Shown here piece by piece: positions 6,018 to 16,099 of a stretch of DNA of 64,000 nucleotides. The stretch comes from Gammaproteobacteria bacterium (GTDB lineage: Bacteria > Pseudomonadota > Gammaproteobacteria > Ga0077554 > Ga007554): NCBI GenBank assembly GCA_016191235.1, contig JACPOZ010000011.1:62001-126000 (forward strand), given 5' to 3'. The notes below the pieces were generated by a model. That model was not told the origin of the DNA. It was given only the letters and a program-made list of their open reading frames with translations, and did no database searches. A program made the translations under genes and the position numbers. How positions within the stretch are numbered: the stretch's first letter is position 1; every line of letters begins with the position of its first letter.

Positions 6018-9000
6018 TTAAGGGTGGCTAAACATGCGTCTATCAACCACCTCACTAAAAAACAGGTAAAGTACGGGCATCAAAAGAAGCACCAAGGGCA
6101 CCGCTGCAATCAGCCCAAAAATGATGCTGATGGCCAACGGTGTCTGCATTGCGGAACCCGCGCCTATGCCCAGAGCCAGTGGCATCAGAGCGAGGATGGC
6201 GATGGTGCTGGTCATGAAGATAGGCCGCATGCGCTTGATCCCGGCAACGATCAGATCTGACGCGCTATGACGCGCTTGCGTGTCTAATTCAGCGAAATAA
6301 AAAATCGCCACTTCGGTTACGATGCCGACGATCATCGTCATCCCCATCATGGCAGAGACGTTAAGCTCGGTACCGGTCAGGAACAAGCCCGCAAAGACGC
6401 CGCTCAGGGCCAGCAACGTGGTCAGCAGGATGCTCAAAACGACAGTAAAGCGCTCATACAAAAACAGCAGCAGCACTGTCACCAACATCACTGCGCTGAC
6501 GAAAACCACGAGCAAATCACGGAAAGATTGTTGTTGTTCCTGATAAAGCCCGCCGTATTCAATATAGACACCCGCAGGCAGATTCATCTTCGCCAGCACA
6601 CGCTGCACATCCCGCATGGTGGAACCGAGATCACGCCCTTCGAGACGTGCCGTCACGGCTACCATTTGCTTGAGATTTTCACGTGTCACCTGGGCCTGGC
6701 CTTCAGTGATGCCGATGTCGGCCACGCGCTTGAGTGGCAGGTAATGGCCGTCCAGCGCGCGGATTCGCAGCTCATTGAGCACTTCGATGCGGCTGCGCAG
6801 ATCCCCTGGAGTCCAGACTCTGATACCAATCATTTTTTCACCCGATTGAATCTGGCTGGCCACTGCGCCAGCCAGTTGCTCCTGAACCTGGAGAGCGACA
6901 AGGTTGGGATCAACACTTTCAAGCGCCGCTTTGACGCGGTTGACGCGAATGTCGATGGCATCACCGGCAATGGTGATGCCATCAAAGACTTCCACTGCAC
7001 CGGGAACGCTGGCGACGCGTCTTGCGACTTCCGGCGCCAGCTTGCGCAGTACGGCGCCATCGTCCCCGAAGATTTTCACCTCTATGGGCTGAGGAACGGC
7101 AGTGAGGTCACCGATCAAATCTTCCATAAGCTGCGCCGTCTCGATACGCAGGCCAGGCACCTCATTTTCCACGCGCTGGCGTAACTCCGCCATGATGGTC
7201 TCTATATCACGCCTGGGCAGTGGTTTAAGACGAACGAAGAAGTCTCCGTGAGTAGCTTCCGTCAATCCACCGCCGAGCTGCAAACCGGTGCGCCGTGAAT
7301 AGCTGTCCACTTCCGGCAAAGAGGTGATAATACTTTCCACCTGACGCAACAGCCGGTCAGTTTCAGTCAACGATGTGCCGGGCACGGCCTTATAATCGAG
7401 AATGAAGCCACCTTCGTCCATGCGCGGCATGAAACCAGAACTCAGATGGGTATAAGCGGCGTAGCCAACAAAACCCAGCAGCACAATCATCGGCAGCACT
7501 ATCACAGGGCGTGCCATGAGCCGCTGCATGAGGCGCCGATACCATGAATGTAAGCGCCCCATCCATGGGCCAACGGCCTCCAGGCGCGCTGCGTCACGTT
7601 CACGCAACCAAAGGTCTGCCAACAATGGCACGGCGAGAAAGGCGACAAAAAAGGAAATGACGAGACTGGCGGCCATGGTGAGGGCCAATGCCTTGAAGAA
7701 GCCGCCTGTTACCCCGCTCAAGAAAGCCAAAGGCAGAAATACGATGATCGTGGCAAGAGATGACCCCAGCAGTGGCCGCCCCATTTCCATGGCGGCTGAC
7801 AGCACCCTGCCCCGAGTGGGCGTGTCACGCTCGGCCTCGCTGAGGCGGCGCATGATGTGCTCCAGCATCACTACCCCGTCATCGACGATTAAGCCTACTG
7901 CTGCCGCCATACCACCCAGGGTCATAATATTGAAACTCATGTGGAACACGTACAACAACAGCACGGTAGCCGCCAGCACGCCTGGCAGCGCAATGGCGAT
8001 AATCAGGGTAACGCGCAAGTTGCGCAGAAAGAGCAGGAGGATAACGGCGGCCAGCAATGCGCCGATGAGGATTGCGTCGCGGACACTCAATGCCGCACCA
8101 GTAATGAGATCAGACTGATCGTAATAGGGCTTGATCTGAATATCCGATGGGATCTTCCCGCCAAACGCCGCCAGCTGCGCCTTGACATCCTGAACGATGG
8201 CTACCGTATTCGCGTTGCGCTGCTGCTTGATATTGATCAGCACCGCATCCCGGCCATTGGCGGTGACCCGCGTCCACTGCGGTATTTGCCCCAGGCGCAC
8301 GTCGGCCACATCTTCAAGTTGAACAATACCGCTGCCACCGCCGCGCAGTATGGTGCGGCGGATTTCGTCAAGGCTATGCAGCCGCGAATCAGCCAGTACC
8401 AAGTACAGGCGATACCGGTCTTCCATGCGCCCTACCGCCGTCACAACATTATTGGCGGACAGGGCAGTGGCGACATCAATAGGGGTCAAGCCCAGCGCCT
8501 GGAGGCGGACCGGATCCACCAGCACCTGGTACTCCGCCTGTTGCCCACCCAGGACTTCTACCTGGGCCACGCCGGGCGCAGCGGAAAGCGCTGGCCTTAA
8601 TTGATAGTACGCAAAATCACGCAAGGAAACCGGATCACGGCTGGCTGATGTCAGCGCCAGCCCCAGCACGGGAAAGACGGTGGGATCCATCCGGCGCGCG
8701 GAGAAACTCACCCCTGGCGGAAATGAGGTGAGGGCCTGATTCACTGCGGACTCCACCTGCAACAGAGCGGTCACCATGTCGCTGTTCCACGCAAAAGTTA
8801 CCGCGATGTCCGCCGAACCGCGACTGCTGGTGGAGCGGATCGCGCGAACATCCGGCACAGCCCGGAGCGCCTGCTCCAAGGGACGCGTCACCTCCACCAC
8901 CATGCGATCCACGGGGCGATCCCCGGCATTGAGGCTGACCACTACACGGGGGAAGTCAATGGTGGGAAACAACGCCACTGGCAGGCGCATTGCAAACAGG

Positions 9001-9074
9001 CCACCCCCTACAGCCAAAAGCGCCAATAGAAACAGCAGGGAACGGCGATGCCGCTGCAACCAGGTGCCCATCAT
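6018..9074 (-). CDS. RND-family efflux pump inner-membrane permease
   Basis: 1018-aa proton-driven transporter, the inner-membrane part of a tripartite efflux system. The topology is typical: TM1 near residues 11-29, a large periplasmic domain, a block of TM helices (about 330-530), a second periplasmic domain, then a C-terminal TM block (about 845-1010). The TM4 proton-relay motif reads VGLIVDDGVVMLEH, with two adjacent Asp as in the hydrophobe/amphiphile efflux group; heavy-metal CzcA-type pumps have a DFG...DGAVV pattern instead. The sequence start LPVALFPTIDFPRVVV matches the family's P-x-x-x-F-P entry. Its ATG overlaps the TGA of the adaptor gene (ATGA), so the two are translationally coupled. 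Substrate unknown. Confidence 0.93.
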   Translation of the reverse strand: MMGTWLQRHRRSLLFLLALLAVGGGLFAMRLPVALFPTIDFPRVVVSLNAGDRPVDRMVVEVTRPLEQALRAVPDVRAIRSTSSRGSADIAVTFAWNSDMVTALLQVESAVNQALTSFPPGVSFSARRMDPTVFPVLGLALTSASRDPVSLRDFAYYQLRPALSAAPGVAQVEVLGGQQAEYQVLVDPVRLQALGLTPIDVATALSANNVVTAVGRMEDRYRLYLVLADSRLHSLDEIRRTILRGGGSGIVQLEDVADVRLGQIPQWTRVTANGRDAVLINIKQQRNANTVAIVQDVKAQLAAFGGKIPSDIQIKPYYDQSDLITGAALSVRDAILIGALLAAVILLLFLRNLRVTLIIAIALPGVLAATVLLLYVFHMSFNIMTLGGMAAAVGLIVDDGVVMLEHIMRRLSEAERDTPTRGRVLSAAMEMGRPLLGSSLATIIVFLPLAFLSGVTGGFFKALALTMAASLVISFFVAFLAVPLLADLWLRERDAARLEAVGPWMGRLHSWYRRLMQRLMARPVIVLPMIVLLGFVGYAAYTHLSSGFMPRMDEGGFILDYKAVPGTSLTETDRLLRQVESIITSLPEVDSYSRRTGLQLGGGLTEATHGDFFVRLKPLPRRDIETIMAELRQRVENEVPGLRIETAQLMEDLIGDLTAVPQPIEVKIFGDDGAVLRKLAPEVARRVASVPGAVEVFDGITIAGDAIDIRVNRVKAALESVDPNLVALQVQEQLAGAVASQIQSGEKMIGIRVWTPGDLRSRIEVLNELRIRALDGHYLPLKRVADIGITEGQAQVTRENLKQMVAVTARLEGRDLGSTMRDVQRVLAKMNLPAGVYIEYGGLYQEQQQSFRDLLVVFVSAVMLVTVLLLFLYERFTVVLSILLTTLLALSGVFAGLFLTGTELNVSAMMGMTMIVGIVTEVAIFYFAELDTQARHSASDLIVAGIKRMRPIFMTSTIAILALMPLALGIGAGSAMQTPLAISIIFGLIAAVPLVLLLMPVLYLFFSEVVDRRMFSHP

Positions 9075-10179
9075 TGATGGCCGCCCTGAGTACGCACCCT
9101 CATGCCGTTCTTCAGCTCATAATTACCCAAGATAACCACGCGCTCATTGTTCGCCAGTCCACCGAGGATTTCCACGTAGCGGCCATCATCATGCCCTATA
9201 TCCACGCCACGCCACCAAGCCTGTCCTTTATCGTTCACGAAGACATAAGCCTTACCGCCGCGCTCATACAGCACGGCGGCACGTGGCACGGCCAGGGCGT
9301 TGCGCGCCTGGAGAATAATGTCACCCCGCACCATCGTGCCTGACAACATATCGGGGGCTGTCAGCAAGGGCACCACCACCTCGCTCAAATGCGTTTTAGG
9401 GTCTATCAATTGATAGACCTGGGTAATCTGGCCAGTCACGGGCATCCCTTTGACATACACCGGCATCACTTGCACGGACTGACCTGTCCTGATCCTGCGA
9501 ATGTCTTCGGCTTCCACACCGAGGCGCACCCGCAACCGATCTCCCTTGGCAATGCGCAACAAGGGAGTGCCTGGCGCAGCGATGTCACCCTGGCGGACAT
9601 TGACCACATCCACTACACCCTCCATATCGGCGCTCAAAACTCTGTCTATCTTGCCGCCCAGGCGTTTTTGGATACCCGCGAGGATGGCCTGATCCCTGGC
9701 CAGACTCTGTTCTGCCGCCTGGACTTCGGCATTGGTCGCCAATTGACGGGAGAGTAAATCACGCAATCGCACTGCATTTTTTTCGGAGAAAGTCACATCG
9801 ATCCGGGCGCGCTCCAATTCGAGTTGAGCGTTGGCTGTTGCGCGCAATGAAAGCAGCGCGTCGCCCCGCCGCACCCGCTGCCCCGCCGCACCCGCTGCCC
9901 CGCCGCAACAAAGACCTGATTCACCATCACCTCCGTCATGACATCCATAGCCTGGACATACTCTGGTGAAAACTCTACTGTCCCATAGGTGGTCAGGGTT
10001 TCCGTCAGGCGCACTTGCTGCACAGGACTGGTTTGAATCAGCACCGACGGTGAACTCTTTGCGGCAGGTACTGTCTCGTCTGAGTCAGCCTGGCCCATCA
10101 TGGGTACACCCAGAACTACCGCAACAAGAGGCCAGCATAGCCAGGCCTTAAAGGATTTCGTCATAATCAAGGGTCTCAT
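9071..10179 (-). pseudogene. RND efflux membrane-fusion (adaptor) protein, frameshifted by a 17-bp tandem duplication
   Basis: HlyD/AcrA-type periplasmic adaptor that would join the permease to the outer-membrane channel. The 5' part (from 10179; ATG overlaps the OMF stop as ATGA, with an alternative ATG at 10164) encodes a signal peptide and the first barrel strand up to VFVAAGQRVRRG. The 3' part, in another frame, continues DALLSLRATANAQ with the coiled-coil hairpin and barrel to the stop at 9071. The break coincides with a duplicated 17-bp unit at 9864-9897. Removing one copy leaves 1092 nt, exactly 364 codons, and restores a normal 363-aa adaptor. The gene is therefore either inactive, reversibly switched by slippage, or misassembled. 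Confidence 0.88.
9864..9907. repeat. 17-bp tandem repeat, 2.6 copies, inside the adaptor gene
   Basis: The unit CCCCGCCGCACCCGCTG occurs at 9864-9880 and again at 9881-9897, followed by ten matching bases at 9898-9907. Because 17 is not a multiple of 3, the second copy shifts the reading frame of the adaptor gene. Confidence 0.97.
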
Positions 10180-11636
10180 AGCGCCAGCGGCGCACCGGAA
10201 GCAAGCTGCAAAGCCACCTCCTGCTCAGCCGCTGCCTGTTCCAAGCTCAGCAGTTTGATCTGCTTATCCAACAACGTGGCGCGCACCGTCTCATAATTCA
10301 CCAGGGAGGTATCGCCGCTGGCCACGGCGGCACGCAAGACACGCTCCACTCGCTCCAGTTCCGGCAACTGTTGCACCAATGCCTCGTATTCCTGGCCGAT
10401 GCGATAAAGGTCTGCGATTAACGTGGCAATATCCGCACGGGTTTGATACAGCCGCGCCAGATATTCGGCATACAATTTATCGCGGGTGGCTTCAGCCTCG
10501 GCAATGACGCCGCGATTAGCGCTATTGAACAGGGGAATATCCAGGCTGATGCCGATGCTTTGACTACGCACACCCGCTGTATCCCGCACCTCGCTCAACC
10601 CCAGATTAAAGCGCGGATATTGCCCCAGCACTGCACGGTATATGCGCGCCTCCTGGGTGTCATAGCCCGCCCTCAACGCCGCCAAATCCAGGCGTGCTGT
10701 ACGCGTTTCAGCAAACAGGGCCTCAGGGTCTGGCAACGATGCCGGCAAGGAAATCCTGGAAGTGGCGACTGAAACAATTTCCCCAGGCAACAAACCCAAC
10801 ACCCGGTTCAAATCCTGGCGCGCTTTCTGGAGTTCCCGCGCCAGCGCGAGGACACGATCACGCGCATCCAGATAGGCCACCTGGCGCAACCCCACCTCAT
10901 CGATTTTCACATTCCCTTCACGCAGGTTGCGACGCGCCACTTCAAGCAACTTGGCGGCAATATCGGAAAACTGCTGAGCCATCGCTTGTTGCCGTTCGAG
11001 ATAGGCAACACGCCTGCCCATGAGGGCCGCCTGATTAGCCACCAGCCATTCCTGCCAGGCAATGTCATTGCGCACTTGCAATGCCTGGTTATTGGCGATA
11101 CGCATATCGCCCTGGCGTGTAATCAGACGCGCGATATCCCAACTCAGGCCCAGGTTTTGCGCGTTGACCAGACCACCTCCACCAAGAGGGTGATCCAACC
11201 CAACGGCAAGCTGTGGATCAGGCAATAGCCCCGCCGCGAAAACCTGCGCCTGGGCCACCCCCTCCTTGGCGCGAAATGCCTGTAGATCAGGACTGGCCAG
11301 CACAGCAATAACACCCAGCGCTTCGCCGGTAAGGGGTTGGGAAAAGTCCAGTGTCATGGGGGGCAAACGGGGATGGCGGAGCCGGGCCGCCTCCCGGGCC
11401 AGAGCGACCCGATCGGGCGCCGCCAGAGATTCATTCAGACGGTTATCGTCCAAAGGTTTTGGATGATAGCCTGCACAACCAGCGATGAAGGCCGTCAACA
11501 TCATCACGGCGCAACCTCTGAGTTTCTCGGAGGTTTCAATGCGCCATCCAACATGCGGACTCTTCACTTCAAAAAATCGGGCAAAAAAACGTGGCGCGAA
11601 CCGGCGGAAATCTTCACTCACAGTGTCCGTTCGCAT
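10176..11636 (-). CDS. TolC-like outer-membrane efflux factor (lipoprotein)
   Basis: Outer-membrane channel of the tripartite pump, of the NodT/CzcC-like OMF family. The 486-aa frame contains two repeated helical segments (for example LLEVARRNLREGNVKIDEVGLRQ and the second half from QYPRFNLGLSEV onward) and ends with the long helices typical of the family. A lipobox is visible as MLTAFIAGC at about residues 46-54, so the true protein is probably a lipoprotein. The upstream 45 residues are not signal-like; a later GTG or ATG start between 11573 and 11492 is likely, and the listed start is the longest frame. The stop overlaps the adaptor ATG. It lies 26 bp after PepSY gene 1. Confidence 0.88.
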   Translation of the reverse strand: MRTDTVSEDFRRFAPRFFARFFEVKSPHVGWRIETSEKLRGCAVMMLTAFIAGCAGYHPKPLDDNRLNESLAAPDRVALAREAARLRHPRLPPMTLDFSQPLTGEALGVIAVLASPDLQAFRAKEGVAQAQVFAAGLLPDPQLAVGLDHPLGGGGLVNAQNLGLSWDIARLITRQGDMRIANNQALQVRNDIAWQEWLVANQAALMGRRVAYLERQQAMAQQFSDIAAKLLEVARRNLREGNVKIDEVGLRQVAYLDARDRVLALARELQKARQDLNRVLGLLPGEIVSVATSRISLPASLPDPEALFAETRTARLDLAALRAGYDTQEARIYRAVLGQYPRFNLGLSEVRDTAGVRSQSIGISLDIPLFNSANRGVIAEAEATRDKLYAEYLARLYQTRADIATLIADLYRIGQEYEALVQQLPELERVERVLRAAVASGDTSLVNYETVRATLLDKQIKLLSLEQAAAEQEVALQLASGAPLAL

Positions 11637-11662: not shown

Positions 11663-11998
11663 TTAAGATCCCGTTATGGGGTCATCGGTTTGATCTGTTT
11701 GTATGCTCAAAATCTTACCGGTCTTGCCGTCCACATGCACGTCCGTGGCTTTACCGCTGTTGATAATTTTCACTCTGTAAACAGGTTCACCATGTACATC
11801 ATTCAACTCCACCCTGGCAGCCTTGCCATTGGCATGCCGTTCCGCGCCGGAAACGGCTTGGATCAGGCTGATCTTGGTCTGTTCAATGACGTCCGCATCG
11901 CTTACGTCCTGAAGCATTTCCTGACTGACATACAACATCGCAATGGCCAAGGCCGCGGCAGTCACAGCAACCATAATGAATGACAGTTTCTCGCCCAT
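11663..11998 (-). CDS. Small PepSY-domain protein 1, membrane-anchored or secreted
   Basis: 111 aa. It has an N-terminal hydrophobic segment (about residues 5-24) and then one PepSY domain: ISLIQAVSGAERHANGKAARVEL, the PVYRVKI strand, and DVHVDGKTGKILSI. Single-domain PepSY proteins are periplasmic and often sit beside two-component systems; their biochemical role is poorly known. The start at 11998 is preferred over a frame opening at 12022 because AGGAGGA lies 5-6 nt upstream of it. It is the first gene of the PepSY-OMF-adaptor-permease operon and has its own NTTAAG-box promoter. It is a paralogue of the PepSY protein at 15658-16008. Confidence 0.85.
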   Translation of the reverse strand: MGEKLSFIMVAVTAAALAIAMLYVSQEMLQDVSDADVIEQTKISLIQAVSGAERHANGKAARVELNDVHGEPVYRVKIINSGKATDVHVDGKTGKILSIQTDQTDDPITGS

Positions 11999-12057
11999 GA
12001 TATTCCTCCTGAAGTAAAGCAAGAATCAATAACGCTTACCGCGTTACCGTGATTGGC

Positions 12058-13402: not shown

Positions 13403-14713
13403 TTACACCTTTGCGACAAATTCGACGCGAGCCAGCAGCCCGCCGCCGCTCGCCTCGCCAAGTGTCACTGTGGCACCATGACGCTCTGCAATCGCCTTGA
13501 CAATCGCCAGCCCCAGTCCACTGCCAGACTCTTCGGTTCCGGCGCGGCGATAGAATCGGTCGAATACCCGCTCGCGATCCTCGGGCGGAATGCCCGGTCC
13601 GGTGTCGGCGACTTCCGCAAATGGCTGTCCCTCATCGATACCAACCGACACATCGACCTTACCTCCCGCGGGAGTGTAGCGAATTGCGTTCTCGACCAGA
13701 TTCGCAATCAAAATGCGTAACGCATCGGCATCACCTTGTACCAACACGTTGTTATCCACCGAAGAGACACCGAGATCAATCTGCCTGGCTTCGGCCAAGC
13801 GAATATGCTCCGCGACAACCAGACGGGCAAGCTCTCCGAACTTCACTGGTGCAAATGGGCGCTCGACCTCGCCCGGCTCCTGGCGTGCAAGAGTGAGCAA
13901 CTGTTGCACCGCATGAATCGTGCGTTGCAACCCTTGTTCCAGCTCCGCAATAGTCTCGGTGCGTTCCTGCGCATCCGTTGCCCTTTTGACGAGTTGCACT
14001 TGAAGCTGCAAGGCGGCGAGCGGCGTGCGCAGCTCATGGGCGGCATCGGCGATGAACGCACGCTGAGCCTCCATGGCGCTTTTCAGTCTTGCCAGGAGAT
14101 CATTGAGCGCATGCACCAGCGGCTGCACTTCTACCGGCGCCCGTTGCTCAGAGAGTGGATCCAGAGCTGAAGGCGTCCTGGCAGTCACCGCTTGCGCGAT
14201 TTGCGCAAGCGGTGACAAGCCGCGGCCTACAACAACCCATATCAGCACACCCAACACCGGCAGCAGGATAAAGAACGGCATCAAGGTGCGCAGGGCGGCC
14301 TCAGCGGCCAGTCCATTGCGCACGCTCATCGGCTGGGCGACCTGAATGGTCTGTCCGCGCAACTGGGCGGTGAATACGCGCCATGCACCGTCTCTGGCCT
14401 GGATGGTGGAGAAACCGAGCTGTGCGTGATCGGGTAGCGCGCTATGCGGATGCGAATAGTAGAGCCTCACGCCTTCCCGATCCCAGACCTGGATGACGAA
14501 ATCGAAATCTTCCTCATCGGCTTCGCCTTTGGGCACCACCGCACTTTCAAATGCCTGGTCGCGCAGAGAAAGTGCAACCTGCCGCAAGTGGTAATCGAAA
14601 ATCTCATCCGCCTCCTCACGTGCCATACGATACATGGCAAATGCACCGAGCAGCATCACGGTAGTTACTGCCCCGAGCAGTGCCACCAGCAGATAGCGGC
14701 GGATTGATGTCAC
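13403..14713 (-). CDS. Sensor histidine kinase, QseC/PmrB-like
   Basis: 436-aa inner-membrane kinase that should phosphorylate the response regulator encoded just upstream. TM1 is at about residues 8-27 and TM2 at about residues 144-163. The periplasmic loop between them carries an acidic patch EADEEDFDF at about residues 64-72, reminiscent of metal- or peptide-sensing loops, though the signal is unknown. The H-box FIADAAHELRTPL places the phospho-accepting His at 226. The N-box NLVENAIRYTP and G-boxes DTGPGIPPEDRERVF and GSGLGLAIV are intact. Its ATG overlaps the regulator's TGA (ATGA), so the pair is coupled. Confidence 0.93.
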   Translation of the reverse strand: MTSIRRYLLVALLGAVTTVMLLGAFAMYRMAREEADEIFDYHLRQVALSLRDQAFESAVVPKGEADEEDFDFVIQVWDREGVRLYYSHPHSALPDHAQLGFSTIQARDGAWRVFTAQLRGQTIQVAQPMSVRNGLAAEAALRTLMPFFILLPVLGVLIWVVVGRGLSPLAQIAQAVTARTPSALDPLSEQRAPVEVQPLVHALNDLLARLKSAMEAQRAFIADAAHELRTPLAALQLQVQLVKRATDAQERTETIAELEQGLQRTIHAVQQLLTLARQEPGEVERPFAPVKFGELARLVVAEHIRLAEARQIDLGVSSVDNNVLVQGDADALRILIANLVENAIRYTPAGGKVDVSVGIDEGQPFAEVADTGPGIPPEDRERVFDRFYRRAGTEESGSGLGLAIVKAIAERHGATVTLGEASGGGLLARVEFVAKV

Positions 14714-15372
14714 AGCTCTTTCGGCACCATGTAGCCCACGCCACGGATGTTCTTGATAAACTCCACGCCCAGTTTGCGCCGCAACGAGTGGATATATACC
14801 TCGACCGCATTGCTCTCGATCTCTTCACCCCAGCCGTAGATACGCTCCTCCAACTGGACACGGGAGAGAGGTACGCCGGGCCGTTCGAGCAGTGCATGCA
14901 ATAATGAAAATTCCCGCGCCGATAAGTTCACTCGCACACCGTCGAGAAGTACTTCATGAGTAGCAGGGTATACAGCGAGTCTGCCATGCTCGATGACCGG
15001 CTCGGCGCGGCCAGCTTGCCGCCGCAGCAACGCGCGGATGCGCGCGGCAAGCTCGTCGAGATCAAAAGGCTTAACGAGATAGTCGTCGGCACCTGCATCG
15101 AGACCCTTCACACGATCAGCCACAGAGTCCCTTGCTGTAAGGATGAGCACAGGAATGCGGTTTTTCCTGCGGCGAAGGTTAGCGAGGACATCAAGCCCCG
15201 CCTTGCGCGGCAGGCCAAGGTCAAGCAGCACCATGTTATACACGCCATTCTCCAGCGCCAGCTCGGCGGCCTGCCCATCGCGAACCCAATCGACCATATA
15301 GCCGTCTTGCTTGAGTCCCTTCTGGGCGCTTTTACCAATCATGGCATCGTCTTCGACAAGCAACAGACGCAT
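14710..15372 (-). CDS. OmpR-family response regulator, QseB/PmrA-like
   Basis: 220 aa. The receiver domain has the acidic pair E7-D8-D9, phospho-acceptor Asp51 (LLDLGLP), Thr79 and Lys101. The C-terminal winged-helix DNA-binding domain spans about residues 125-218, with the recognition region NAVEVYIHSLRRKL. The closest groups by eye are QseB, PmrA/BasR and TctD. PmrA and QseB bind direct repeats of CTTAAG type with 11-bp period, and three such repeats occur in front of nearby genes, so this protein is the obvious candidate to bind them. It is cotranscribed with the kinase gene, and PepSY gene 2 lies 285 bp upstream on the same strand. Confidence 0.93.
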   Translation of the reverse strand: MRLLLVEDDAMIGKSAQKGLKQDGYMVDWVRDGQAAELALENGVYNMVLLDLGLPRKAGLDVLANLRRRKNRIPVLILTARDSVADRVKGLDAGADDYLVKPFDLDELAARIRALLRRQAGRAEPVIEHGRLAVYPATHEVLLDGVRVNLSAREFSLLHALLERPGVPLSRVQLEERIYGWGEEIESNAVEVYIHSLRRKLGVEFIKNIRGVGYMVPKEL

Positions 15373-15657: not shown

Positions 15658-16008
15658 CTATCCCTCATCCTCCTCCTGCCCCTCATGTTCGGCATCGGCC
15701 TTGTCCGGCTTGGCACTGATGACCTTACCGTCGATGCTGTCGACCTGAACGTCCATCACCTTTTTTGCGCTCGCCACCTCTACATTGTAGACGAGGCGGC
15801 CGTTTTCATCTTCCAGCGCAGCGCGCGAGGCCTTGCCGGACACATGCTGCTCCGCGACTGTGATCGCCTGGGAAAGCGAAACCTTCGTCTTCGCCAGCTC
15901 TGCGATTGCATCGTTCTCGTGCTTCGTCTCGGAATCGGCATAAGCAAATGCGCCAGCCGTACCCAATGCTATGAGTGCGCCCATCAAGATAGTCGTTTTC
16001 GTAGCCAT
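15658..16008 (-). CDS. Small periplasmic PepSY-domain protein 2
   Basis: 116 aa with a clear Sec signal peptide (MATKTTILMGALIALGTAG to AYA-DS). One PepSY domain follows: VSLSQAITVAEQHVSGKASRA, RLVYNVEVAS, DVQVDSIDGKVIS. The tail is very acidic (DKADAEHEGQEEDEG), which might bind cations. The start at 16008 is supported by GAAAGGAGAG upstream; the frame extends to 16068 but without signal character. It is a paralogue of the protein at 11663-11998 with the same TKxSLxQA core. Its promoter box lies within the 3' end of tilS, and the two-component genes follow downstream on the same strand. Confidence 0.87.
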   Translation of the reverse strand: MATKTTILMGALIALGTAGAFAYADSETKHENDAIAELAKTKVSLSQAITVAEQHVSGKASRAALEDENGRLVYNVEVASAKKVMDVQVDSIDGKVISAKPDKADAEHEGQEEDEG

Positions 16009-16066
16009 GATTACTCTCCTTTCAATGGAATCATCGATCCGGCATGATTGCCGTTTCGTGGAGGCC

Positions 16067-16099
16067 ATACTAGAGGCAGATACTTAAATGAGGCTTAAA
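16067..16099 (-). promoter_or_regulatory. Response-regulator box and -10 in front of PepSY gene 2, overlapping tilS 3' end
   Basis: Minus strand: TTTAAG (16099-16094), 5 nt, TTTAAG (16088-16083), exactly 10 nt, then TAGTAT (16072-16067). The layout is the same as the promoter at 12058-12090. The box covers the last codons and stop of tilS. The PepSY start codon is about 60 nt after the -10. Confidence 0.65.

Follow-up and report, generated by a model that had tools for sequence, protein, structure and literature searches.

Does a tandem duplication inside the periplasmic adaptor gene of an RND efflux operon act as an ON/OFF switch of the pump, or is it an ordinary loss-of-function mutation? 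The question is raised by the draft genome of a Gammaproteobacteria bacterium (GCA_016191235.1), in which we analysed a 64,000-nt stretch of contig JACPOZ010000011.1 (positions 62,001 to 126,000; hereafter the window). The features on which the answer depends are as follows.

6018..9074, minus strand: RND permease gene, intact, its start overlapping the adaptor stop (ATGA); PF00873, 711 bits, and the junction
9071..10179, minus strand: RND periplasmic adaptor gene, its frame broken at the array; TIGR01730 and PF16576 on its downstream part, and an intact orthologue
9071..9874, minus strand: downstream in-register adaptor part of 267 codons that opens at a GTG within the array and has no signal peptide; ORF list, 90% identity to the sister species
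9793..10179, minus strand: upstream adaptor frame, 128 aa, with a signal-peptide-like start and, past the array, ~28 out-of-frame residues; ORF list and translation
9863..9907, minus strand: frame-breaking tandem duplication, 17 bp, 2 units + 11 bp; Tandem Repeats Finder (TRF) and exact scan, 17 bp absent from the sister species
9864..9901, minus strand: G-quadruplex motif, five G-runs on the coding strand, two-unit state only, a predicted structure; motif scan
10176..11636, minus strand: outer-membrane efflux protein gene, intact, its stop overlapping the adaptor start (ATGA); PF02321 and the junction
13403..15372, minus strand: two-component pair (histidine kinase, response regulator) located upstream of the efflux operon, a possible regulator; NCBIfam matches

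An interrupted adaptor gene in an otherwise intact operon

On the minus strand the genes are ordered as response regulator (15372-14710), histidine kinase (14713-13403), PepSY protein (12022-11663), outer-membrane efflux protein (11636-10176), adaptor (10179-9071) and RND permease (9074-6018). The adaptor overlaps each neighbouring gene by 4 bp (ATGA), in the window genome and in a sister species alike, and the frames of the outer-membrane protein and the permease are undamaged, in agreement with the preliminary description of this DNA, which had called both flanking genes intact. In the profile search the permease stayed under the NCBIfam subfamily cut-offs. The NCBIfam matches of the two-component pair are nearest to QseC/PmrA types, all under their cut-offs, and its position makes it a possible regulator of the efflux operon. 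PepSY-domain proteins at 11663-12022 and 15658-16068 (minus strand) flank this QseBC/PmrAB-like pair beside the operon.

The adaptor gene spans 1109 bp, which is 2 modulo 3. Its frame from the ATG at 10179 (complement) runs into a stop at 9793, yielding 128 aa, whereas the downstream part, taken alone, scores 121.3 bits against TIGR01730 and thereby passes the curated cut-off of 94.9; this part also matches PF16576. With the same downstream part as the only query, the CzcB/NccB heavy-metal adaptor profile TIGR00999 gave 87.9 bits against a cut-off of 319.3. Inspection of open reading frames revealed no second stop or frameshift in the adaptor gene or its neighbours.

A perfect 17-bp tandem array lies at the frame break

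TRF and an exact scan delimit a perfect tandem array of 45 bp (2 x 17 + 11; 100% identity) at 9863-9907 on the minus strand. No other array in the window comes close: its TRF score is 90, and the next locus has 49. Its self-match run extends over 28 bases; the next array reaches 10, and 40 simulated windows (order-4 Markov) gave no more than 12. The array is therefore a real duplication rather than a product of chance. The preliminary description had located the array correctly but had given it as 9864-9907 with two units plus 10 bp, one base too short. It had also placed the array exactly where the frame breaks, and this is borne out, since the open reading frames switch frame there and the sister gene is shorter by 17 bp at the same place. 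Because 17 bp is not divisible by 3, two units break the frame and one unit, as in the sister species, leaves it open; the intact one-unit orthologue is direct evidence for the earlier claim that the duplication throws the adaptor out of frame. The 364 codons predicted for the gene with one copy removed are arithmetically correct with the stop included (1092 nt), and the sister gene has 365 codons. The array falls on the codons for the conserved G-Q-R-V-R-R-G motif of the adaptor.

The two-unit state is derived and apparently recent

The only close relative is the sister species, a metagenome-assembled genome in the same genus (Gammaproteobacteria bacterium ND4_Bin_8). Its adaptor gene, with 88% DNA identity, has exactly 17 bp fewer at the array site and a reading frame uninterrupted over its whole length. 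The 17 distinct homologues compared (~29-90% identity; four in records named Acidithiobacillus, and a duplicate listing of the sister locus counted once) are all open across the array site. The two-unit state is seen in the window genome only. Together with the intact one-unit sister gene, the open homologues show that the two-unit state is derived. Copy-number variation was found in none of the relatives, each of which has a single unit or lacks the array. The operon is missing from the two further species of the genus that were examined, a DNA search at family level recovered it in the sister species only, and viral contigs and plasmids yielded no relative.

The dN/dS values relative to the sister species are 0.20 for the downstream part of the adaptor and 0.26 for its upstream part; the corresponding values are lower for the permease (0.08) and the outer-membrane protein (0.10). 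When changes in the downstream part were polarised with three outgroups, the window-to-sister ratios, from small counts, were 7:7, 2:12 and 5:8, with no excess on the window branch; the higher adaptor dN/dS thus looks like a property of the adaptor rather than decay in the window genome. Old pseudogene decay was ruled out, given that there is neither a second lesion nor an excess of changes on the window branch. Since the gene is otherwise undamaged and the branch gives no indication of relaxed selection, the loss appears to be recent, or else the sampled allele would be one of several. A frequently ON allele would also be compatible with the lack of additional decay.

Slipped mispairing as the probable origin

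We consider it probable (about 0.76) that a recent replication-slippage duplication, promoted by microhomology, frameshifted the adaptor of an otherwise intact RND tripartite efflux operon, which makes the allele an ordinary, potentially revertible loss of function. An array of 2 x 17 + 11 implies a one-unit state with an 11-bp direct repeat, TGCGGCGGGGC, at 17-bp spacing with a 6-bp spacer. A short direct repeat at such spacing is a usual substrate of slipped mispairing. The repeat sits on the codons for A-A-G-Q-R-V-R-R-G; the sister species holds 10 of its 11 bp, owing to one silent third-position difference (GCA versus GCG), and lacks the exact tandem copy. The G-Q-R-V-R-R-G codons are GC-rich and internally repetitive, and mispairing of the 11-bp repeats during replication would add exactly one 17-bp unit. 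Slippage is thus the mechanism to which the array's architecture points.

Weighing a switch, an artefact and rescued expression

The preliminary description had gone further and read the array as a possible reversible ON/OFF switch. Under phase variation, cells would alternate between an in-frame one-unit state and an out-of-frame two-unit state often enough for selection to keep both, and pump activity would be bet-hedged. A unit that is not a multiple of 3, perfect copies and 28 bp of homology for slippage would all serve such a device, and the adaptor gene shows no decay; there is also a precedent, as Waite et al. 2003 reportedly found that spontaneous sequence duplications govern phase variation of the pneumococcal capsule (cap8E, tts). 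Moreover, having two units completes a G-quadruplex motif missing from the sister's one-unit gene, and G-quadruplex-type repeats increased deletion rates in E. coli plasmid assays (PMC7023247); however, this motif class is not rare in the genome (38 in ~0.89 Mb by motif scan). There are just two units, which is what one duplication event leaves, and no relative has the tract or any variation in it. Nor does ~0.96 Mb of the window genome, some stretches of which are N, contain another frame-shifting perfect tandem with a match run >14, a result on which a genome-wide contingency-locus system was also rejected. In Xenorhabdus nematophila lrp, the alleles interpreted as plain mutants included tandem duplications of 26-116 bp, and none of the isolates tested reverted genetically (PMC6786866); a recent review cautions against stretching the term phase variation to cases without demonstrated reversion (PMC11868660). 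Titles and abstract openings in the literature yielded nothing relevant on repeat-driven phase variation of efflux adaptors. We therefore regard the switch as unlikely, and nothing points to an evolved phase-variation device. Of the earlier reading the frame disruption stands, whereas the reversible switch is reduced to a possibility by the lack of variation among relatives, the two copies and the lack of an array class in the sampled genome. A single fixed copy number in reads and relatives had been named as the outcome that would speak against a switch, and on the side of the relatives this is what was found, all having one unit. It is highly improbable, furthermore, that the G-Q-R-V-R-R-G codons constitute a natural slippage hotspot at which populations mix one- and two-unit alleles, with the two-unit-only G-quadruplex speeding the return to pump-ON.

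The extra unit might alternatively be an assembly artefact, or a minor-strain allele caught in the draft consensus, most cells having one unit and a working pump. The genome is indeed a draft in 73 contigs with 78.6% completeness, and the repeat is GC-rich, but misassembly of tandem repeats is expected to collapse copies rather than add any (an argument made in PMC12817950), the 45-bp array is shorter than usual reads, and its ends match a plausible biological microhomology; this explanation, too, is improbable. Least credible of all is that a working product is still made from the two-unit gene through an internal start or ribosomal frameshifting. A right-frame GTG does occur inside the array at 9874, yet a product begun there would be missing the signal peptide as well as the initial half of the barrel-sandwich region, and the frame of the relatives is plainly open, so that frameshifting is not needed; programmed frameshifting was ruled out on the same ground. 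Eight contigs of the window genome (C4, C5, C18, C33, C34, C36, C48 and C49; ~1-2.4 kb each) read as N throughout in the copy analysed.

Predicted consequences for the pump

The two-unit gene would yield a truncated 128-aa fragment and no working adaptor, and loss of adaptor function is accordingly predicted from the sequence. Translation would end ~720 nt short of the permease start codon, which overlaps the adaptor stop (ATGA). Given the ATGA overlaps at both junctions, the downstream permease may lose translation too: coupling to it is probably lost, and permease synthesis would probably fall. The genome contains ten further adaptor-like matches, which could soften any phenotype. Slippage could drop one unit in rare cells, so the mutation would be revertible in principle, and reversion by unit loss is plausible.

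Relation to known systems

The locus resembles RND tripartite efflux operons with a TIGR01730-type adaptor in that genes for adaptor, permease and outer-membrane protein lie together with a two-component system nearby; unlike typical members, it has an interrupted adaptor gene and a permease under the NCBIfam subfamily cut-offs. With the pneumococcal cap8E/tts case of Waite et al. 2003 it shares a short in-gene tandem duplication that disables a gene and is undone in principle by copy loss, but there both states and reversion were observed in culture, whereas here a single state is seen in one draft genome. Short coding-sequence duplications likewise serve as loss-of-function alleles in Xenorhabdus nematophila lrp (PMC6786866); those were recovered in culture and their reversion was assayed in isolates, while the present one is known from sequence alone. 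As in simple-sequence-repeat phase variation of Neisseria, Haemophilus and Campylobacter, the frame is set by repeat number and slippage is the proposed mechanism, yet those tracts comprise many units of 1-8 bp, in contrast to two 17-bp units here and relatives without a tract.

Were the switch real, an environmental bacterium would be using a two-unit duplication to bet-hedge its efflux. As a slippage product, the locus offers a clean example of how GC-rich, internally repetitive motif codons may give rise to one-step, potentially revertible gene loss, and it cautions that such duplications should not be called switches without population data.

The tandem scan also took in ~0.80 Mb of the sister genome, where it recovered perfect arrays of a 10-bp unit x 3.9 (L117:3041-3079) and an 8-bp unit x 3.75 (L128:8447-8476), neither unit being a multiple of 3; these two resemble slippage tracts more than the window array does. 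Contig C61 of the window genome carries a 9-bp unit, GGAGGTACA, repeated ~7 times (L101:12634-12698), whose length is a multiple of 3.
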